A stretch of DNA of 46,878 bases from a virus, in the IMG/VR virus record IMGVR_UViG_3300033145_000493, positions 1-46,878 of that record. One strand, 5' to 3'. Shown one piece after another: positions 7,013 to 43,403 of the stretch. A program made the position numbers and the translations under genes. Every line of letters begins with the position of its first letter. Position 1 is the first letter of the stretch. The notes beneath the pieces were generated by a model that saw nothing but the letters and a program-made list of their open reading frames with translations, was not told the DNA's origin and ran no database searches.

Positions 7013-7192
7013 TTAAGACATTCTAAGAAGTAAAAATATAACACCTAAGAAACTCAAAGTTGTTGATACAAGAGTTCCAATTAGTAGCTTTTGTACACTA
7101 TCCCACTTATTCCAGAGGCTTATCACATCACCCTCCAGTGCTTTAATTCTAGCACTCATTCCTGAATGTTTAAGACAAAGTTCATCTCTCAT
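7013..7192 (-). CDS. XhlA-like membrane protein, 59 residues
   Basis: Begins MRDELCLKHSGMSARIKALE, then a short amphipathic or coiled-coil segment, a KWDSVQKL linker and one C-terminal membrane helix of about 20 residues (IGTLVSTTLSFLGVIFLLL). This layout matches the haemolysin XhlA/holin-accessory family, small proteins that often accompany lysis genes. Its ATG overlaps the TGA of the large terminase gene in an ATGA, so it is translationally coupled. It could assist the holin. The lysis role is inferred from the family. Confidence 0.72.
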   Translation of the reverse strand: MRDELCLKHSGMSARIKALEGDVISLWNKWDSVQKLLIGTLVSTTLSFLGVIFLLLRMS

Positions 7193-8721
7193 ACATACCT
7201 CCAGTTGGACATAGGTTCTTCGTAATCAAGTTCTTTATACTCAGATTCTATATCCTGAGGATTTTCCTTAGGTGAGAAATAACGCTCACCTAACTCAAGC
7301 ATTTCAATTATATAAGCTTCAGCATCCATAATATCCCAGAGTCTAGAACGTGGAAACATAAGAAGTTGGGATTCAAGCTTCTTAATATTCGGACAGGAAG
7401 CATTGTGATAGATGTAGCCTTGACGATAGTAAGGCACAAGTTCCTTCACACGAAGTTCTTTCTTCATTCCCCCACGAGTTTTAAGCCAGATAAGTTCAAA
7501 AAACTTCCCTCGTTTAAACATTTCGTTTTTTATAGGTTGTTTGATAAACTCGTTGAGTGAAGTCTCTTCAACACCTAATACTTTCGCATCTAACCGTATC
7601 CCCATCTCAAACATAGCATCATAAAGTTCATCAGGGTAGAATTTCTCTGATACAATGTCTCGTATATAAAGCCGTGCATTGTTTAGGTCAATGCCAATAC
7701 CTATGATTGCACTCTCAGCTGAGTGAAGTTTGACAGTTTTAGCAGGGTCAACAATTACTACATTTTCAATATTTTTGTCATTTTGGATATCAGCATCTGT
7801 TTTCTTCAGGTCATTTTCTCTAACTTGGTCTTCCCTTGTATGCCCATAGTAGCGGAAGTAGTCTTTTTGAAATGCAGCATCTTTAGTTGAGATAGGTAAG
7901 TTTCTAAGCTCCCTAAAAAATACATCTGTCATACCTGCATCTGAATGGTCTTTCCATTCTTTAGCAATGTCTTCATTAGACATAAATCCAGGCGCTACTG
8001 ATCTGAAGTTGTCGTCACACGCTTCGAGACGTATACTTGCCCAGTCAGGTGCATCAAGGAGATTCTGGATTAGGGCATCTTCATGTTTTAAGGTGTCTAT
8101 ATACACTATTTTCCAATCCTTATGAAGCCTAGGAACTGCCTTAATTACATCTGCATAGAGCCAATTCTTACGTTTTGCCCTTATCACTTCACCTTCGATT
8201 GTCTCAGGGTCTTCAAGATCATCTATGACGATTAGGCCTGGACGAGAGTTTTTGAATAGAACTCCACGCACCTGTTGGCCAGAACCCCTTGGCAAAACAA
8301 ATGTATCGTAAGCTACCCAAGCTTTCTTGCTGAAGCTTTCATCAACCTCATCTCGCTTAACTCCTCGTGGACGTATAGGGCCGAAGAACTGCTTGATGGC
8401 TCTGTTGGTTGTAAGTTCACGTCTTAAGTTTTCAGTCTGTAAAGCAGCAGCATCATGAGACATGTTTATGTAAACTATAAACTCACACTTTCTAAACAGT
8501 ATATACCTCGCAATTAGGGCAAGAGCTACAATGGATGTCTTACCCCAACCACGAGGAGCTGCGATGGCTACTTTATTTGCTTTTCCGTCGATAAGATCAA
8601 ATATCTTATCATGGACGTTTTCAGCAAAGGGTACATAAAAGCGCTCAGGGAAGAATGTTAGAGCTGTAGCCTTAGTACTTATTGAGCAAGTTGAAAGTAT
8701 TTTGGTTAGTTGAGAGTTCAT
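7189..8721 (-). CDS. terL: terminase large subunit
   Basis: A 510-residue ATP-driven DNA-packaging motor with nuclease. Walker A is APRGWGKTS at 55-63, Walker B is LIVIDDLED near residue 165, and the C-terminal RNase-H-fold nuclease begins with VIVDPAKT near 325. Its start overlaps the stop of the tailspike gene (TAATG). It is separated from the small terminase by about 6.5 kb of glycan-modification and tailspike genes, which is an unusual order. Identification rests on the ATPase and nuclease motifs. Confidence 0.93.
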   Translation of the reverse strand: MNSQLTKILSTCSISTKATALTFFPERFYVPFAENVHDKIFDLIDGKANKVAIAAPRGWGKTSIVALALIARYILFRKCEFIVYINMSHDAAALQTENLRRELTTNRAIKQFFGPIRPRGVKRDEVDESFSKKAWVAYDTFVLPRGSGQQVRGVLFKNSRPGLIVIDDLEDPETIEGEVIRAKRKNWLYADVIKAVPRLHKDWKIVYIDTLKHEDALIQNLLDAPDWASIRLEACDDNFRSVAPGFMSNEDIAKEWKDHSDAGMTDVFFRELRNLPISTKDAAFQKDYFRYYGHTREDQVRENDLKKTDADIQNDKNIENVVIVDPAKTVKLHSAESAIIGIGIDLNNARLYIRDIVSEKFYPDELYDAMFEMGIRLDAKVLGVEETSLNEFIKQPIKNEMFKRGKFFELIWLKTRGGMKKELRVKELVPYYRQGYIYHNASCPNIKKLESQLLMFPRSRLWDIMDAEAYIIEMLELGERYFSPKENPQDIESEYKELDYEEPMSNWRYV

Positions 8722-14997: not shown

Positions 14998-15252
14998 TTA
15001 TTTATGAGGAAAGAAAAGGCCTGCGAGGACATCTATTAATCTCTTAATAGGTCCCATTACCTTGTTAATAGCATCCCAGGTTTCTTTTTGACCACCAGTA
15101 GATATACTTGGCATAGTTTTGATGATCTGCTCTACACCATCTACAACGAATGCTTTCTTCTTCGTACCAGTGCCAGGGCCTAAGAGCTCCTCGGCAATCT
15201 TGATTAAATTAGTAACTAACGGAATTAATTGTAGTGCGACTAACCAGTTCAT
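14998..15252 (-). CDS. late protein, 84 residues, membrane-associated?
   Basis: Begins NWLVALQLIPLVTNLIKIAE, an amphipathic or hydrophobic helix, then a GPGTGTKKK turn and further helices ending in LIDVLAGLFFPHK. Its ATG overlaps the TGA of the small terminase gene (ATGA). Similar short proteins lie next to terminase or lysis genes in other phages without a proven role. I do not assign a function. Membrane association is suggested by both hydrophobic ends. Confidence 0.65.
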   Translation of the reverse strand: MNWLVALQLIPLVTNLIKIAEELLGPGTGTKKKAFVVDGVEQIIKTMPSISTGGQKETWDAINKVMGPIKRLIDVLAGLFFPHK

Positions 15253-15815
15253 TTTTGTACCTCCTTAGTAACTTCTGCTTCAGGAATTTCCTCAACAAGC
15301 ATACCTGAAGCTTTAGCTGCTTCAATACCACGTTTTTTGAATTCTTCAATATCACTAGGTGTAAGAAACATATGAGCATTTTCACTCTGTACTTTTGCAG
15401 GGGCACGATGGCCACCTATATCCATTAATACAGTGTCTGCTGCTTCTTTTTGTAACTTGGATTTTTCTTCACCTTCAAGGATTTGTTCGTAAGTTTTTAT
15501 TGCAAGCGGGAATAGTTTAGCAACTTCCTCTGATACACTTACGAATTCTTCATCTCTTTTCTTTCTCATTTCAGAAAGTTTCTTTATACCTAATTCAGAG
15601 TTTATAGTATTAGAGACAGTTGCAGGAGTTATGTTTAGGGACTTTGCAATTTCTGGTGCTTTCATCCCTAAGAGCGCAAGACCTATGATTTCATGCGTGC
15701 GTTGCCAGAGCTGCTGGATGTTGTAAGTTTTCCTTTCACCAGGGAGCGCTCGTCTCTTGTCTCGTTCTCTAACTTCAAACCCATAAAGGGATGTCTGTGC
15801 CTGTGTATTGTTCAT
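15249..15815 (-). CDS. terS: terminase small subunit-like HTH protein, first gene of late operon
   Basis: A 188-residue protein. A helix-turn-helix spans about 44-68 (LALLGMKAPEIAKSLNITPA, then TVSNTINSELG), followed by a long helical oligomerisation region and an acidic tail (EEIPEAEVTKE). This matches DNA-recognising small terminase subunits; a transcription factor is the main alternative. A perfect-consensus sigma70 promoter ends 6 nt before the ATG, and there is no Shine-Dalgarno sequence, so the message is probably leaderless. Confidence 0.72.
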   Translation of the reverse strand: MNNTQAQTSLYGFEVRERDKRRALPGERKTYNIQQLWQRTHEIIGLALLGMKAPEIAKSLNITPATVSNTINSELGIKKLSEMRKKRDEEFVSVSEEVAKLFPLAIKTYEQILEGEEKSKLQKEAADTVLMDIGGHRAPAKVQSENAHMFLTPSDIEEFKKRGIEAAKASGMLVEEIPEAEVTKEVQK

Positions 15816-16011: not shown

Positions 16012-16142
16012 TAATTTTCCATTTGTCAACAATAGTTGTAGAATTTGCCAAAATGTGAGGGAGCTAACCCACCGGCTAATAGGGTAATATTCCCCCTTCG
16101 ACGCTTTTTTATAACGTACTGAAATCATTGAATAAAAAATAG

Positions 16143-16171
16143 TTGTTGACAAACAATATTGTTTATGTAAT
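16143..16171 (+). promoter_or_regulatory. early promoter with internal 14-bp palindrome
   Basis: TTGTTG (16143-16148), 17 nt, then TGTAAT (16166-16171) gives a plausible sigma70 promoter; an overlapping TTGACA is at 16146-16151. Between the boxes lies AAACAATATTGTTT (16151-16164), a perfect 14-bp palindrome placed where a repressor would block polymerase. The first early gene starts about 26 nt after the expected start point. Confidence 0.6.
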
Positions 16172-16203
16172 GATAAGGCATAATAATAAAAAGGGGGTGA
16201 AAT

Positions 16204-16509
16204 ATGGTAAATTTTTACACAGACGGACACAGTGACTTAATTGTCACTGACAGCCACGTCGGTATTCTTAACGGGTGCATGGCGACGGGTGGGGAGCAGG
16301 AAGGGACTTGCTCCCATGTCTCAATGTTTCAGGACAGTGAGTATAACTGTCCTGCAGAAGTTGACCTGTCAAAGGCAAGGCGGCAGTTAGAAGACCGCCT
16401 GCGGAAAGACGGTCAACTGTTAAAGAAGCTGCTGTTTACGGCAGCTTGGTTGACCGAGCACAAAGGGATTCGGGAGGGCTTCCTGGAAGCCCAGCTCGAA
16501 AAAATTTAA
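16204..16509 (+). CDS. first early protein, 101 residues, unknown
   Basis: It starts after AAAGGGGGTG, the first gene of the rightward arm. The protein has a Cys/His-containing N-terminal half (NGCMATGGEQEGTCSHVSMF) and a helical C-terminal half (SKARRQLEDRLRKDGQLLKK). No family was recognised. The DNA is richer in G+C than its surroundings and is filled with perfect local inverted repeats, so the segment may act at RNA level as well as, or instead of, encoding protein. An immediate-early host-takeover role is a guess from position. Confidence 0.55.
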   Translation: MVNFYTDGHSDLIVTDSHVGILNGCMATGGEQEGTCSHVSMFQDSEYNCPAEVDLSKARRQLEDRLRKDGQLLKKLLFTAAWLTEHKGIREGFLEAQLEKI

Positions 16510-16550
16510 CCCAGCCACAGAACCGTCCCGCTTCGGCGGGACAAATCAAA

Positions 16551-16584
16551 GGCGTATCTCTCAATAGAGAGGTACGCCTTTTTT
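16551..16584 (+). terminator. intrinsic terminator after first early gene
   Basis: A 12-bp stem (GGCGTATCTCTC 16551-16562 with GAGAGGTACGCC 16567-16578, one G-U pair), an AATA loop and six T residues. A GTCCCGC-TTCG-GCGGGAC tetraloop hairpin at 16525-16542 stands just before it. With the promoter at 16143-16171 this delimits a transcript of about 400 nt. Confidence 0.88.
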
Positions 16585-16613
16585 ATTCCGGCCAAGCCAA
16601 GAAGGAGGCAATT

Positions 16614-16784
16614 ATGAAAATCAACAGAATGACCTTACAAGAGACTGTAAGGGAGATAATCCGACTGGTCAAAGACGGCCAGTCTAATTCAAGGCACGTA
16701 GAGAAACTGCGTGCTCGGGCAACCAGACTCCGGGCAGAACAATGTCCGGAAATCGAGGTTATTGACCTCTTAGACCTGAAGTAA
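16614..16784 (+). CDS. small early protein, 56 residues, unknown
   Basis: It starts at MKINRMTLQETVREIIRLVK with AGGAGGCAATT upstream. It is helical and basic, with RARATRLRAEQ in the middle. The DNA contains at least five local inverted repeats. It lies between the terminator at 16551-16584 and the folded leader of the next gene, so it depends on read-through or on an unseen promoter. No family was recognised. Confidence 0.6.
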   Translation: MKINRMTLQETVREIIRLVKDGQSNSRHVEKLRARATRLRAEQCPEIEVIDLLDLK

Positions 16785-16816
16785 GTAAGTTAGGTCTTTG
16801 TTCTTTGACAATTTGC

Positions 16817-16881
16817 GACGTTTAGATCGTTCAGGTCTATACGTCAATGTTAGACCTTCCATGAGAAACTCAATGGAAAGG
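16817..16881 (+). promoter_or_regulatory. structured leader occluding a ribosome site
   Basis: Two adjacent stems lie here. GACGT-TAGATC (16817-16828) pairs with GGTCTA-ACGTC (16834-16845), a T-T mismatch separating the two blocks on each arm. CCTTCCATGAG (16855-16865) pairs, with two bulges, with CTCAATGGAAAGG (16869-16881). The second stem covers the AAAGGAG ribosome site of the gene starting at 16890, so its opening may control translation. Confidence 0.55.
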
Positions 16882-16889
16882 AGTTTATT

Positions 16890-17261
16890 ATGGAAAACAA
16901 TCTGGGTACGTTGATTGGTAAAGTGATCGATAATTTTTCGATCACGAACGACGCTGGGGATAAAGTCCAGTTGAGGTTGACGTTTGATTTCAGCACGTCA
17001 ACCGACAATGAGATCAAGTCATGGTTATGCGGAAACAGGCGCATAGCCCTTCAAAGGCCTGCAAGAGCCATGAGTAAGGATGAATTGAATGATCTTAACA
17101 ATACGACGATCATGGCCATTGATGCAGGTAAGAAGGTTAAAACCAGAGCAGAGAAAATCAAGGTTTACACCAGTATGGGATTGCCAGAAAACATGGCAAT
17201 CATGGCAGTTGATAATCCTGGAAAGTTTCAGGAAGCTATGAACAAGGTGAGCCATGAATAA
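16890..17261 (+). CDS. early protein, 123 residues, unknown
   Basis: It begins MENNLGTLIGKVIDNFSITN after AAAGGAGTTTATT. The first half is beta-rich (KVQLRLTFDFSTST), the second helical (KKVKTRAEKIKVYTSMG). No family was recognised. Its coding DNA carries several perfect inverted repeats of 7-9 bp (16923-16945, 16975-17003, 17180-17200), unlike most genes of the window. It overlaps the following small gene by 8 nt. Confidence 0.68.
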   Translation: MENNLGTLIGKVIDNFSITNDAGDKVQLRLTFDFSTSTDNEIKSWLCGNRRIALQRPARAMSKDELNDLNNTTIMAIDAGKKVKTRAEKIKVYTSMGLPENMAIMAVDNPGKFQEAMNKVSHE

Positions 17262-17421
17262 AACATTGAATGATATAGAATTACGTTTAATATGGGATCG
17301 CTGCTGCGCATACGTGAATAAAATGAGTGACGATAATCCAGAAGAGCATTTTTATAAAGATACTTTCGGAGAGCTATTAAACATTAAAGCGTGGCAACTA
17401 TTACAGGAAGATAATAAATAA
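17254..17421 (+). CDS. small early protein, 55 residues, unknown
   Basis: ATG at 17254 lies inside the end of the previous gene, after AAGGTGAGCC, giving coupled translation. The product begins MNKTLNDIELRLIWDRCCAY and is acidic and helical. It is the last gene before the terminator at 17447-17484. No family was recognised. Confidence 0.6.
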   Translation: MNKTLNDIELRLIWDRCCAYVNKMSDDNPEEHFYKDTFGELLNIKAWQLLQEDNK

Positions 17422-17446
17422 TAACATTTCATGGAAGGTCTAATCT

Positions 17447-17484
17447 AAAGCCCTTTGTTTTATTAATAAACATAGGGCTTTTTT
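17447..17484 (+). terminator. intrinsic terminator built around palindrome copy 7
   Basis: AAAGCCC (17447-17453) pairs with GGGCTTT (17475-17481) and is followed by a run of T. The loop region is a full copy of the dispersed palindrome (17453-17475, half-sites CTTTGTTTT and CTATGTTTA). This is the one copy clearly used as an RNA hairpin and the only one that ends a transcription unit. Confidence 0.85.
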
Positions 17485-17573
17485 ATTGCTGATTTTCAGT
17501 TAGAACTTAACCATTCTTGAGAAATAACAACTGCTATTGTTCACAACTTGTTGTATTTTTACCAATTAATACA

Positions 17574-17602
17574 TTGACAATGAGGTGTTCTATGTGTATA
17601 TT
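17574..17602 (+). promoter_or_regulatory. sigma70 promoter of second early unit
   Basis: TTGACA (17574-17579), a 17-nt spacer and TATATT (17597-17602) form a near-perfect promoter. Transcription would begin near 17609, inside the left arm of the large inverted repeat at 17605-17736. The -35 box lies in ACATTGACAAT, a string also present at 19258 and 20704. Confidence 0.85.
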
Positions 17603-17604
17603 AT

Positions 17605-17736
17605 GTAATTGTAATCGTAATTGTAATCGTAATTGTATCCGACTCCCCTGCCTCCCATATATGTAAAAAAAAAAAAAAAAAAAGGGGGGAATGGGGGGTC
17701 AGTTACAAATACAAATACAAATACAAATACAAATAC
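17605..17736 (+). repeat. 132-bp nested inverted repeat with A19 loop
   Basis: The left outer arm is a hexamer series alternating GTAATT and GTAATC (17605-17634). The right outer arm is a series of ACAAAT units to 17736. They pair in phase, with one or two mismatches per hexamer. The inner arm GACTCCCC (17641-17648) pairs with GGGGGGTC (17693-17700), then CTCCC with GGGGG. The loop contains 19 A residues (17664-17682). The structure fills most of the gene-free stretch 17422-17778 and forms the 5' leader of the next gene. Hexamer arrays also recall origin iterons. Confidence 0.8.
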
Positions 17737-17778
17737 AAATACACATACATTAAAGAGAGAAAACTAGGAGGGTCTTAA

Positions 17779-20812: not shown

Positions 20813-21169
20813 ATGCCAGAAGTTAAAGAGATTAGTGCAAGAAGTCCGAAGTTGGAAAGAGAAACTGTTATCATGGTAAACGTAGGCTCAACTGTTGAGG
20901 AGTCCATCGAGATGTTTGGTGGAGATGCCGTAAACTCTAATGCCATTGCTAACTGGGCAGTAACACTCCAGGCCGGTATTAGACGTGCTCATGCTGCCGG
21001 TAAAACAGACGATGAGATCCAAGAACTCCTGGGCGATGCTAAGATGGGTAAGGCTGTATCTGGTGGTCGGGTAGATCCTATCCAGGCCTCCCTGGCCAAA
21101 TTCAAGACCATGAATGATGAGGAAAGAGAAGCATTCCTCGAAAAACTGCGAGCTGCCGCTGCAGAGTAA
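20813..21169 (+). CDS. probable highly expressed early protein, 118 residues, unknown
   Basis: A monocistronic gene with a perfect promoter, leader hairpin, AAAAGGAGGT ribosome site and its own terminator. The protein starts MPEVKEISARSPKLERETVI, with a strand-rich first third (TVIMVNVGSTVEESIEMF) and a helical remainder (ANWAVTLQAGIRRAHAAGKT), ending in an acidic Ala-rich helix. Pro/Cys are scarce. No family was recognised. Its expression set-up suggests an abundant protein, such as a stoichiometric host inhibitor or a DNA-coating or decoy protein. That is inference. Confidence 0.75.
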   Translation: MPEVKEISARSPKLERETVIMVNVGSTVEESIEMFGGDAVNSNAIANWAVTLQAGIRRAHAAGKTDDEIQELLGDAKMGKAVSGGRVDPIQASLAKFKTMNDEEREAFLEKLRAAAAE

Positions 21170-31940: not shown

Positions 31941-34445
31941 ATGAAGCATACATTCGTTCCACCTAGAGGCCTTCGAGAAGCTACCCTTGCTGTATGTGGA
32001 GAGCAACCAGGAGTTCAAGAAATAAAATGGAATCCACCTACTCCATTTGTAGGTCCTGCCGGTAAAGGCCAAGATTCTTGTATGCAAGTTGCTGGACTCG
32101 TCAGAAGGGAATGTTATCTAACAAATGTGGTAAAGGACTTAGACGCACCACTTGCTCATTATATAAATCTAGATTCTCGTGGAAAGTATACTATCTCCGA
32201 AGATGGTTGGACTTACATTAATGAATTAAGGGATGAACTTAAAGCATTACCAAACCTAAATGCAATCGTAGCTTACGGCAACATACCTCTAATCGCTCTA
32301 ACAAACCGTGTAGGTATTACTAAATGGAGGGGTTCTGTCTTGGAATCAACTCTCGTCCCTGGTCTCAAAGTAATACCTACCTTCCACCCTGCAACATTCA
32401 TCCCTCCAAAATTCAACTTCATGAATAAGCCTTTAATCTGCTTTGACCTGAAAAGAGCTAAATATGAGTCTCAGTTTAAAGAACTTAGACGTGAAGAACG
32501 AAATGTTAAAATTAAGCCTACATTTGAAGAGTCAGTTGCTTTACTAAAGAATGCTTATGAACAAGGTCTTAGAGGAACTACAATCGATCTCGACATCGAA
32601 ATTATTAATGAAGAGTTAGACTGTATAGCGATTGCAACGAGTCCTAACAATGCAATAAGCATTCCCTTCCGCTGGACGCAGGGTGATTATTTTACTATAG
32701 AACAAGAACATGAAATAATGCTACTAATAACTGCAATCATGCAGGAAGAAAGAATCTCCAAACGTGGTGCTAATTTTATCTTCGACTGTCAATACCTTCT
32801 CCACAAATATGGCATAAAGCCTATGGGAGAGATTCATTGTACTCAGATTGCTCAAAAGATTTCATTCCCAGATTTCAAAGCCGGCCTTGATTTTGTAACT
32901 ACAATGCATACTGATATTCCTTACTACAAAGAAGACGGTAAAAAGTGGATGAAGGTTGGTGGTACTTGGGATACTTGGTGGACTTATAATGGAATGGATG
33001 CTATATCAACGTCTGCTGCACACCCTAATCAGATCGAAGATCTAAAACGCCAAGGTAACATTGAAACCTACGACCGTCAGAGGAAATTAATCCCTCCACT
33101 CCTTTACATGATGGAGAGGGGGATCAGAGTTGATGTAAGTGGAATGTTAGAAGAACAGAAGAGAATGAATAGTTATATAGATGAAACTGCTGAGAAGTTA
33201 AATTCTAAGGTAGGTTTTGAACTAAACTATAATTCTCCAAAACAACTCCAAGAATATTTTTACAAAGAGCTTGGCATAAAACCATACAAAAAAAGGAATG
33301 CTAAAGGTCAGTGGGTTGAAACTGCTGATGAAGATGCAATGAAAAGGATCGCAAGAAAAGGGCACGAGGAAGCAAGAATTATCCTCGATCTAAGACGCAC
33401 TAGAAAGCGTCTATCAACTTACTTAAACATAGGAAAGGTGGATAAAGATGGGAGATATAGATCTTCATATAAGCCTGTCGGGGCTGAAACTGGACGACTC
33501 TCTTCAGGCGAAACTATCTTTGGGACAGGTGGAAATCAGCAAAACTGGCCTCATGACCTTCTGCGTTTTTTTCTCTTCGATGAAGGTTACATTGGGTATT
33601 CATTTGACCTCTCCCAAATTGAAAATAGAATTGTTGCCTATGTCGGAGGAATAATTCCTATGATTGAAGCTTTCGAGACAGGTAAAGATATGCATCGTCT
33701 TACTGCTTCAATGATATTTGGAAAGTCTTATGATGAAGTAACTTCTGAGGACGGGACTTGTCCACTAGGTGATGGTACACACTCTGAAAGATACTTTGGT
33801 AAGAAGTGCAACCACGCAGTTAATTATGATACTGGCTATAAAAAGTTCGCTCTTGTTAATGAGATAACTGAGAAGGAATCTAAACATATATTAGATAAAC
33901 TTCATCAAGCTTATCCACAAATTAGACAAGGCTATCAAGCATTAATTCAATCTATGCTTAAAAAGAATAGAACAGTAACAAATCTATTTGGCCGCAAAAG
34001 AGTCTTCATGGGACCTATCATTCCTAACCCTCCAAGTGTCCCTCTTGCTACATGTATGGCTACTTACCGTGAAGGTTATGCACACCTTCCTCAATCATCA
34101 ACTGCAGATAAGATCAATGAACAAGGGATTGAATATATCTATTATAACCAAAAGGATTTCAAACCTGTTGAACTCTTAACCCAGGTACATGATTCAATAG
34201 TATTTCAAATACCTACTTCAATTCCTTGGAAACAACACGCTGAAATATTGCTTAAGATTAAGAAGAGTCTAGAAACTCCTATGTATTGGAGAGATACAAA
34301 GATAGTTATTCCCGCTGACTTATGTATAGGGTTTAACATGTGTAAAGATGAAATGATTGAATTGAAGAGTAAGAAAATTCCTAATGATATTATAATACTA
34401 GCAGATAGGTTAGAGGAGATATATAGTGACCTTAATAGAAAGTGA
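31941..34445 (+). CDS. uracil-DNA-glycosylase-like/DNA polymerase A fusion
   Basis: An 834-residue replicative polymerase. Residues 1-190 resemble family 4 uracil-DNA glycosylases: GEQPG (20-24), PFVGPAG (35-41), NVV (62-64) and the HPATF box (149-153). A 3'-5' exonuclease follows with DLDIE near 215, NFIFDCQYL near 275 and YNGMDAIS. The polymerase core has RLSSGETIFGTGGNQQNWP, motif A DLSQIENR near 555, motif B CNHAVNYDTGYKKF near 623 and motif C VHDSIV near 748. There is no 5'-3' exonuclease. The fusion may read or repair uracil at the fork. Confidence 0.9.
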   Translation: MKHTFVPPRGLREATLAVCGEQPGVQEIKWNPPTPFVGPAGKGQDSCMQVAGLVRRECYLTNVVKDLDAPLAHYINLDSRGKYTISEDGWTYINELRDELKALPNLNAIVAYGNIPLIALTNRVGITKWRGSVLESTLVPGLKVIPTFHPATFIPPKFNFMNKPLICFDLKRAKYESQFKELRREERNVKIKPTFEESVALLKNAYEQGLRGTTIDLDIEIINEELDCIAIATSPNNAISIPFRWTQGDYFTIEQEHEIMLLITAIMQEERISKRGANFIFDCQYLLHKYGIKPMGEIHCTQIAQKISFPDFKAGLDFVTTMHTDIPYYKEDGKKWMKVGGTWDTWWTYNGMDAISTSAAHPNQIEDLKRQGNIETYDRQRKLIPPLLYMMERGIRVDVSGMLEEQKRMNSYIDETAEKLNSKVGFELNYNSPKQLQEYFYKELGIKPYKKRNAKGQWVETADEDAMKRIARKGHEEARIILDLRRTRKRLSTYLNIGKVDKDGRYRSSYKPVGAETGRLSSGETIFGTGGNQQNWPHDLLRFFLFDEGYIGYSFDLSQIENRIVAYVGGIIPMIEAFETGKDMHRLTASMIFGKSYDEVTSEDGTCPLGDGTHSERYFGKKCNHAVNYDTGYKKFALVNEITEKESKHILDKLHQAYPQIRQGYQALIQSMLKKNRTVTNLFGRKRVFMGPIIPNPPSVPLATCMATYREGYAHLPQSSTADKINEQGIEYIYYNQKDFKPVELLTQVHDSIVFQIPTSIPWKQHAEILLKIKKSLETPMYWRDTKIVIPADLCIGFNMCKDEMIELKSKKIPNDIIILADRLEEIYSDLNRK

Positions 34446-41501: not shown

Positions 41502-42488
41502 TTAAGGATACCTCACCTTTAGTTCTCCATCTACATACCAACCATCAGATTCAGTTGTTACTTTCTTTCCTTTAAAAGCCTGTCGCACTTGTTTATCCAT
41601 CGCTTCGAGCACCATCCTCTTTTGGGCACGCTCTTCAGCTTCTGAATATGAAAGGCCTTTATCTGTGTACTTTTTGATGAGACTTTCACTTGGCCAGTTT
41701 GCTTTATCTTTTGCTAAACCCTCTCTAACATCTTGAGCAAAGTCAGGGCTCATGACCTTAGCCTGACCCTTACCAAGACCCTTTCCAATTTCACGTTCAG
41801 CAATCTCACCAAAGTTAATAGCCCCAGCCTTGGCCATCTCAAGCATCCAATCATTGAAGGTACCTTTATACCCGCTCTTTACAGCTTCATCATAGTCCTT
41901 CTTATGAGTAGTTTCCGCTATATTCTGGAAGTCTTCGAAACTACCTTTAAAGCCTTGCTGTCTAGCATACTCATAATTTTTAATGTCTGATGTTCGAGTA
42001 TCTTTGGCCCCAAGAACTTTCTGTTTATATGCTATATCTAATACATCAGAAAGTTTCTTCCTCTCTACCTCTTCACCTGCAAACTTAAGCTGTAGCGCCT
42101 GAGAAATATTTTCAGGGGTCAGCCCAACTAGATCGGCACTACTAACACCTAGTGGACTATCGGAAGGGTTTAAGAAACTTTGCTTCAGAAAGTTTTGTTG
42201 AGTACCTGTCTGACCGCCACCAGGGATGTTCATAGCTACATCAGGAACAGAGTCTTTAAATAATTCATCTCCAAGCAAAGCAGACGGTGCATCGAGTTTG
42301 AATTTGTCTTTATCCATGGTAAACTTTCCACCACCTGCAAGCATTGTTTTAATCATCTTCATGTAATTCTGAGTGGCTATTTGTTGCTTCGTAGCTTCCG
42401 CCACTCCCTGCATTGGATCATCTGGATTCATTAAACCTTGACCAAGTGTACTAGCATAGTATGCTAACATATTAGGATCTATAGGCAT
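41502..42488 (-). CDS. internal virion protein, 328 residues
   Basis: Lies between the gp14-like gene and the giant ejection protein gene. It has a Met/Gln-rich helical N-terminus, a glycine-rich turn and two related units, YEYARQQGFKGSFEDFQN and YDEAVKSGYKGTFNDWML, about 40 residues apart, of a kind repeated in phage ejection proteins. It starts after AAGGAGGAAAATAA. It probably belongs to the ejected internal core, equivalent in place to T7 gp15. A degenerate palindrome-like sequence precedes it. Confidence 0.7.
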   Translation of the reverse strand: MPIDPNMLAYYASTLGQGLMNPDDPMQGVAEATKQQIATQNYMKMIKTMLAGGGKFTMDKDKFKLDAPSALLGDELFKDSVPDVAMNIPGGGQTGTQQNFLKQSFLNPSDSPLGVSSADLVGLTPENISQALQLKFAGEEVERKKLSDVLDIAYKQKVLGAKDTRTSDIKNYEYARQQGFKGSFEDFQNIAETTHKKDYDEAVKSGYKGTFNDWMLEMAKAGAINFGEIAEREIGKGLGKGQAKVMSPDFAQDVREGLAKDKANWPSESLIKKYTDKGLSYSEAEERAQKRMVLEAMDKQVRQAFKGKKVTTESDGWYVDGELKVRYP

Positions 42489-42509
42489 TTATTTTCCTCC
42501 TTAAGTTAT

Positions 42510-43403
42510 TTATAAAAAACTAGATGCAGCACCAAGAACTCCACCGACAGCGGCTCCTGCAGGACCTCCTATCATAAAGCCTGCAGCCGCACCACTTAAT
42601 CCTCCACCCAGAGCGGAACTAAGAGCACTCTTTTTCTTTTCATTAGGTACAAAAGTACCACCACCAATACTTGCCAATAAATTAGCACCATGTTGAAAGA
42701 CATTTAGATCCCAAGTAGCTGCAGATTCATCTATGTCCAAGTTCATATCAGACTCTTCTTTCTTAGCAACTATTTTTATTCTGTTTGCTTCAACAGTTGC
42801 ATGAGTCAATGATTTTTGAAACTCTAACTTAAGTCCTATCAATCTCAAAGCATCATCACCGAATGCTTTTGCATGTAAATCTGCACTATACTTAGCAACT
42901 TGTCTTGTCTGACCATCTTCGATAATTCCTCTACCGATTGCAAAGGCTGAAGAAACTACCGCATTAATATCTCTCATCCCAGCTTCAAAGCGAGGAAGGA
43001 CTTCAACAGTTAATCTGTCTCCAAGATCAAGTGAATACTCATCTACAGCATTGTCTATTCTTGAGTCAGAAAGAACATCTGCAATTATAGCATCAAGACC
43101 TGTACCTGAACTTAATAGGGTAACTAATGTATCAAAGTCACTTATAGAAGCAAGCATTGAGGTAAGTTCTGTATCTGGATTGTAGGCAGTTTCACCTGTA
43201 TAAGGATCAGCACCAAGTGCTGCGTTCATTATATCTGTCATACTGGAAGTAAGTGTATCAACTCCGGAGCCGTCAAGTGCCATACTATGCCAGGTCTTCA
43301 TATGTGCAGGGTAGTCAACAACTCCAGCACCACCACCTCCACCTCCGCCTTTTTTATTTACTTTAAGTTCAAAGCTCTTCCAACTATTTATACCTAGCAA
43401 CAT
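42510..43403 (-). CDS. internal virion protein, T7 gp14-like position, 297 residues
   Basis: An N-terminal glycine run (seven in a row near residue 18-25), a mostly helical Ala-rich body, and a C-terminal Gly/Ala hydrophobic segment (GGGLSGAAAGFMIGGPAGAA) that could insert in a membrane. In T7-like phages the protein at this position forms the ejected outer-membrane channel. It starts 8 nt after palindrome copy 13, with GGAG within the element end. Confidence 0.72.
   Translation of the reverse strand: MLLGINSWKSFELKVNKKGGGGGGGAGVVDYPAHMKTWHSMALDGSGVDTLTSSMTDIMNAALGADPYTGETAYNPDTELTSMLASISDFDTLVTLLSSGTGLDAIIADVLSDSRIDNAVDEYSLDLGDRLTVEVLPRFEAGMRDINAVVSSAFAIGRGIIEDGQTRQVAKYSADLHAKAFGDDALRLIGLKLEFQKSLTHATVEANRIKIVAKKEESDMNLDIDESAATWDLNVFQHGANLLASIGGGTFVPNEKKKSALSSALGGGLSGAAAGFMIGGPAGAAVGGVLGAASSFL

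Follow-up and report, generated by a model that had tools for sequence, protein, structure and literature searches.

The early mRNA of phage T7 carries double-stranded structures for processing by RNase III or for stabilisation, which are local hairpins sited between the cistrons. Folding that pervades the coding sequence is known from RNA viruses as genome-scale ordered RNA structure (GORS). In phage lambda, the first early transcript contains a boxA, a small gene and a terminator, in the order pL-nutL-N-tL1. The pre-16S rRNA of E. coli has boxA and an essential leader-trailer helix among its cis-elements; the antitermination complex is recruited by boxA, and boxA-bound NusB is thought to keep the leader strand ready for the trailer (PMC10250234).

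The locus described here is part of a linear IMG/VR virus record of 46,878 bases, analysed over its full length and referred to below as the window. With the leaders of bacterial rrn operons, which have boxB, boxA and boxC, a leader-trailer helix, an RNase III stalk and an antitermination complex, it shares the sequence of boxA, the position of boxA 5' of the 5' arm and a long helix joining the ends of the product; in one relative (L071) two cistrons stand in series, each with its own helix, as do 16S and 23S in rrn. It differs in that an mRNA with an ORF is enclosed and not an rRNA (no Rfam match was obtained and the ORF belongs to a protein family), in its shorter helix (12–31 positions), in a boxB-like hairpin that is not general and in a variable spacing between boxA and the 5' arm (0–50 nt). 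By this analogy, the phage unit would work like an rrn operon without being one. The lambda system resembles it in the order of its elements, but the phage boxA is of the rrn type and not the nut type, no N-like protein is apparent, the unit has an enclosing helix and the next operon has its own promoter. Compared to T7, the arms are hundreds of nucleotides apart and enclose a cistron behind boxA, whereas compared to GORS the folding is confined to a single early operon, and the virus is a dsDNA phage. Searches of an open-access library gave no description of a phage mRNA framed by boxA and a leader-trailer helix, though one may exist elsewhere.

Genomic context and layout of the operon

The structural arm of the window genome runs leftward, with the large terminase (7189–8721, PHROG 38, E = 1e-60) and a small terminase-like gene (15249–15815) on the minus strand. 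The early and replication arm runs rightward and includes a PolA-type polymerase (31941–34445). With this polymerase, 53 IMG/VR loci were retrieved, and the nearest annotated phage in the polymerase comparison was Desulfofustis phage LS06-2018-MD01 (OP947158; 46.5% over 99%), a likeness which suggests a Desulfobacterota host, short of proof. In this Desulfofustis-phage-like clade, the segment at 16.2–17.2 kb corresponds to the operon that opens the rightward arm and is presumably expressed early. The contigs of the two closest relatives by polymerase (86%; L009 and L051) end before this region. Because no homologue of ORF101, the first cistron, was found, the site upstream of the small terminase was fetched instead, and was taken from 32 related records for comparison. 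Searching the segment DNA against phages gave no match and the search for tRNA and tmRNA found none. Rfam covariance models gave 0 matches at the gathering threshold over the whole window, which leaves room for undescribed classes.

All features of the operon are on the plus strand. A promoter-like site, recognised by consensus only (TTGACA, a spacer of about 17 and a weak −10 box AATGAT), is located at 16146–16174 and is the positional counterpart of the TTGACA-17-TATGAT/TTTAAT promoters that directly precede boxA in the relatives. It is followed by the hairpin-dense ORF101 (16204–16509, Shine-Dalgarno GGGGGTG), a TTCG-tetraloop hairpin (16525–16542), a strong intrinsic terminator evident from sequence and fold (16549–16586) and ORF56 (16614–16784, Shine-Dalgarno AAGGAGG), which is also hairpin-dense. 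At the boxB position of rrn leaders, just 5' of boxA, a hairpin is formed by AGACCT...AGGTCT (16771–16798). boxA itself, TGTTCTTTGACAATTTG, was identified by motif match at 16799–16815. The leader-trailer helix is formed by a 5' arm, GTTAGACCTTCCATGAGA (16849–16866), and a 3' arm, TTTCATGGAAGGTCTAAT (17427–17444); the former is overlapped by a local hairpin (16833–16857) that competes with the long-range helix. Between the arms are ORF123 (16890–17261), the conserved gene of the operon and a member of a small-protein family, and ORF55 (17254–17421), which overlaps ORF123 (ATGAATAA). The operon ends in an intrinsic terminator recognised by sequence (17447–17486), and the relatives have one at the same place.

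In the preliminary description, the first 400 nt had been likened to a phage ncRNA with its own promoter, TTCG hairpin and terminator. These three elements are all present, but the stretch is coding, with an ORF of 101 codons behind a good Shine-Dalgarno sequence. A stand-alone ncRNA has no support in the segment as a whole either: none of its four ORFs is interrupted, a Shine-Dalgarno sequence precedes each of the three main ones, and the family to which ORF123 belongs is a conserved one of proteins.

No homologue of ORF56 was found, nor of ORF101 in searches that included a peptide-pattern search of viral contigs and the comparison with the relatives; both appear to be extra cistrons specific to the window, with homologues not detected. 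The only good promoter of the window unit is thus separated from boxA by ORF101, the strong terminator and ORF56, in which it differs from most relatives. With this terminator lying upstream of it, boxA cannot help RNA polymerase past 16549–16586, and passage may be due to partial readthrough or to the ORF101 RNA, rich in hairpins, acting in a put-like manner. At the expected places, no enclosing helix specific to ORF101 or ORF56 was found. A stretch of 16 nt at the end of ORF101 (16446–16461) is complementary, across the terminator, to one halfway through ORF56 (16711–16726), a match reached by 3 of 500 shuffles.

Between the small-terminase gene and the early promoter, a conserved non-coding element, AAAATGTGAGGGAGCTAACCC...TTCCCCCTTCG (16049–16101), was observed, which many relatives have in the same place. 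It is possibly a cos or pac site.

Folding of the coding sequences

Perfect hairpins, defined by a stem of at least 7 and a loop of 3–11, numbered 51 in the 46,878 nt, with 11 of them within 16230–17201. The density at 16.2–17.2 kb is about ten times the genome mean (10–11 against about 1 per kb elsewhere), and the cluster noted earlier is far beyond chance. The higher G+C content reported for the segment was also found (0.44 against about 0.38). The genome was scanned as 312 non-overlapping stretches of 150 nt against dinucleotide shuffles, with a mean z of −0.34 (sd 1.3). Six of the seven lowest stretches fall in 16201–17100, with z values of −4.0, −4.7, −5.8, −5.6, −4.5 and −3.6. On the plus strand the folding is stronger than on the minus strand, with sums of −357 and −304 kcal/mol, and an excess over shuffles of −120 and −88, respectively.

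Since most of the hairpin cluster is coding, the coding parts were retested with shuffles preserving both the protein and the codon counts. The z values remained at −5.4 for ORF101, −3.0 for ORF56 and −5.0 for ORF123, compared to −1.2 to +2.1 for ten other genes of the window (ORF55 and nine downstream genes). ORF55, despite its position inside the helix, is not over-folded (+1.7). ORF101 contains 6 hairpins of at least 6 bp where 0.86 are expected, a number reached by none of 200 codon shuffles. ORF101, ORF56 and ORF123 are over-folded beyond the requirements of protein and codon usage.

Among the relatives, 8 of 23 ORF123 homologues have a codon-shuffle z below −2.9; the same holds for 3 out of 50 control genes (p = 0.003 by Fisher's test). 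The homologues range from −6.2 to +1.4 with a mean of −1.9 (controls −1.0), some being without over-folding. In the early region of OP947158, over-folding at 42.0–42.9 and 43.9–44.2 kb ranks among the strongest of that genome. Dense folding is a recurrent, non-obligatory trait of the operon, of which the helix and boxA are the regular part.

The leader of the next early operon in the window (17588–17757) forms one giant imperfect hairpin of degenerate TTGTAATCG / ACAAATAC repeats, whose core is C-rich/G-rich and whose loop is an A-tract of about 20 nt (z of −4.9 and −8.1). Leaders of the next operon in the relatives are comparably over-folded with a different sequence (mean z −3.3 over 17).

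boxA, leader-trailer helix and enclosed gene in related phages

Both boxA and the long-range helix (16799–17444) had escaped the preliminary description, and they reach beyond the region then considered (16222–17232). In the relatives the layout recurs: a TTGACA promoter, boxA, a Shine-Dalgarno sequence, a cistron of the ORF123 family enclosed by a helix and an intrinsic terminator. An iterated HMM search found 27 members of this family in the relatives, proteins of 100–150 amino acids, and as a rule the homologue is the first rightward gene upstream of the small terminase. They were recovered only via this equivalent site; a peptide-pattern search of viral contigs found none. ORF123 itself had no Pfam match, and what the members of the family matched in Pfam and PHROGs was weak and scattered. 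Structure models are mixed alpha/beta and of modest confidence (pTM about 0.5), so that the absence of matches at E ≤ 0.001 for the ORF123 model in Foldseek searches of PDB and BFVD is no evidence of a new fold. The VIA comparison of a group-2 model gave one match, with Z 2.5.

Two further observations concern this family. ORF118 of the window (20813–21169) weakly resembles the group-2 proteins (E = 0.03 in a small search) and may be a paralogue of ORF123; it has its own promoter and terminator, and no boxA was seen. In the units of L062, L063 and L067, CTAG tetranucleotides occur every 20–35 nt, a theme absent from the window.

The boxA-like motif of the relatives, TGTTCTTTGACAATT, is positioned after the TTGACA promoter and before the Shine-Dalgarno sequence and the gene. 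GNTCWYTGAHA is present in the near-upstream stretch of 19 out of 23 non-redundant units, a few being without a recognisable boxA; elsewhere in the same loci it occurs about once per 18 kb, by which about 0.4 of the 23 units would be expected to carry it. In 257 Gb of bacterial genomes, where chance would give about 0.5 occurrences, the 20-mer form was found in 104 stretches. The 81 matches read comprise 14 with SSU or LSU rRNA at most 306 nt downstream, 14 that point off contig ends within 230 nt, like collapsed rRNA operons, and 53 with no rRNA motif within reach. Most of the exact matches (L095–L174) are thus of the last kind, for example several from Streptococcus and Deltaproteobacteria. 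The hairpin at the boxB position is clear in the window (z −3.0 for a 52-nt stretch) and in some other units, with a mean z of −0.7 over 24 units. No sequence is shared by the hairpins that lie downstream of boxA.

In most relatives, the interval from boxA to the gene contains a stretch that pairs with one in the interval from the gene to the terminator. Such long-range stems were scored by ungapped complementarity; duplexfold, dominated by gapped pairings, was set aside. The score of the window helix was reached by none of 500 shuffles, and the helix is also present in the global MFE fold. Own leaders scored against own trailers with a mean of 14.3, compared to 8.0 (sd 1.3) for swapped pairs, and none of 20,000 permutations reached the observed mean (p < 5e-5). 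The window's own pair outscores all swaps. The failure of L063 in this comparison stems solely from a start codon placed too far upstream, its helix of 17 perfect bp being present; in L082 the helix spans 31 positions. The enclosing helix was matched by at most 2% of shuffles in 19 of the 23 non-redundant units, the outliers being L081, L089, L079 (9%) and L076, of which the first cistron has a 31-position helix of its own.

The sequence of the arms differs in nearly every phage and their place between boxA and terminator is constant. The helices contain 23 G-U pairs against 2 A-C mismatches, near-duplicate pairs of relatives being counted twice, so that pairing most likely takes place in the rightward transcript rather than in DNA.

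In the Desulfofustis phage OP947158, a helix of 15 positions (42301/42835; 0 of 500 shuffles) encloses an ORF at 42344–42814, the best, though weak, match of that genome to the ORF123 profile (E = 0.056). This ORF is rightward and unannotated, the record having leftward ORFs there, and it is probably a distant counterpart of ORF123.

Possible function and alternative explanations

On balance, the phage probably has in this segment its first early unit transcribed rightward, with an RNA organised like pre-rRNA. From the anatomy, the complementarity of the arms, the strand preference and boxA, all features of the sequence, we infer Nus binding, a part for RNase III, stability and early timing as follows. 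NusB/S10 of the host, with NusA, NusG and SuhB, would recognise boxA and install an rrn-like antitermination complex, with which RNA polymerase would stay fast and resist Rho along a message that is densely folded and poorly covered by ribosomes. The complex would also hold the 5' arm until the trailer emerges and the arms close into the helix. RNase III, or simple protection of the ends, might then turn this helix into a stable, end-sealed early mRNA, in which the dense local hairpins would leave little single-stranded RNA for RNase E, Rho and defences targeting ssRNA. The enclosed ORF123-family protein would in this way be made early and in quantity. Helices of 12–18 bp are near the lower limit for RNase III, which counts against this explanation, as do the uneven folding of the coding sequence among homologues, the variable distance from boxA to the 5' arm, a boxB-like hairpin limited to some units, the terminator upstream of boxA in the window and the 53 genomic 20-mer matches with no rRNA motif nearby. 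More tentatively, the first early gene of the clade could be expressed from a mimic of an rRNA operon, with a boxA-recruited host antitermination complex, an end-to-end helix, RNase III processing and rRNA-like inner folding, possibly at the cost of host rRNA synthesis, from which Nus factors and RNase III would be diverted.

Another explanation, which we consider doubtful, is that helix and hairpins are only structures for mRNA stability or intercistronic processing in the style of T7 early mRNA, boxA being incidental or serving processivity only. Stabilisation needs no more than a helix, hairpins and terminators, boxB-like hairpins are not general and a few units do without a recognisable boxA. 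It leaves aside, however, that boxA stands between promoter and 5' arm in most units at a frequency far above expectation, and the long-range enclosure of single cistrons is unlike local hairpins between cistrons. The succession of promoter, boxA, small gene and terminator could also point to a lambda-nut-like switch, in which the ORF123-family protein, as an antitermination factor, binds the leader RNA and lets the polymerase read through the terminator into the next operon. This is unlikely: that operon has its own TTGACA promoter, the hairpins 3' of boxA share no sequence, and the proteins do not appear to be short, arginine-rich and N-like, with no arginine-rich N-terminus seen in the family alignment and a mixed alpha/beta model of modest confidence.

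That the hairpins are mutational by-products, with template switching perfecting quasi-palindromes in early genes without selection on the RNA, would agree with strong over-folding of the gene in only part of the relatives. We hold it very unlikely, as boxA and leader-trailer helices with G-U pairs are left unexplained and such a process need not respect the borders of the unit. Action as DNA, in the form of a single-stranded origin, protein-binding cruciforms or inverted repeats bounding a cassette that moves or inverts, is extremely unlikely. One gene is indeed flanked by inverted repeats and the window has extra genes upstream of boxA, but the G-U excess, the stronger folding of the plus strand and repeats that change sequence from phage to phage while keeping their place all argue against it. 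The preliminary description had offered a new structured RNA, an mRNA controlled by its folding and a region functioning as single-stranded DNA; the folded mRNA was supported, by z values that survive codon-preserving controls and a helix that co-varies across relatives, while the ncRNA found no support and the single-stranded DNA was disfavoured.

If the pre-rRNA-like organisation is true, phages reuse the rRNA synthesis pathway for an mRNA, in about 20 related phages with arms that change yet stay complementary. Their units would be natural and compact, and what boxA, the helix and the enclosed RNA each contribute could be told apart in them outside ribosome assembly. The operon is also one of a dsDNA phage whose coding sequence seems to be strongly selected for the folding of its RNA.
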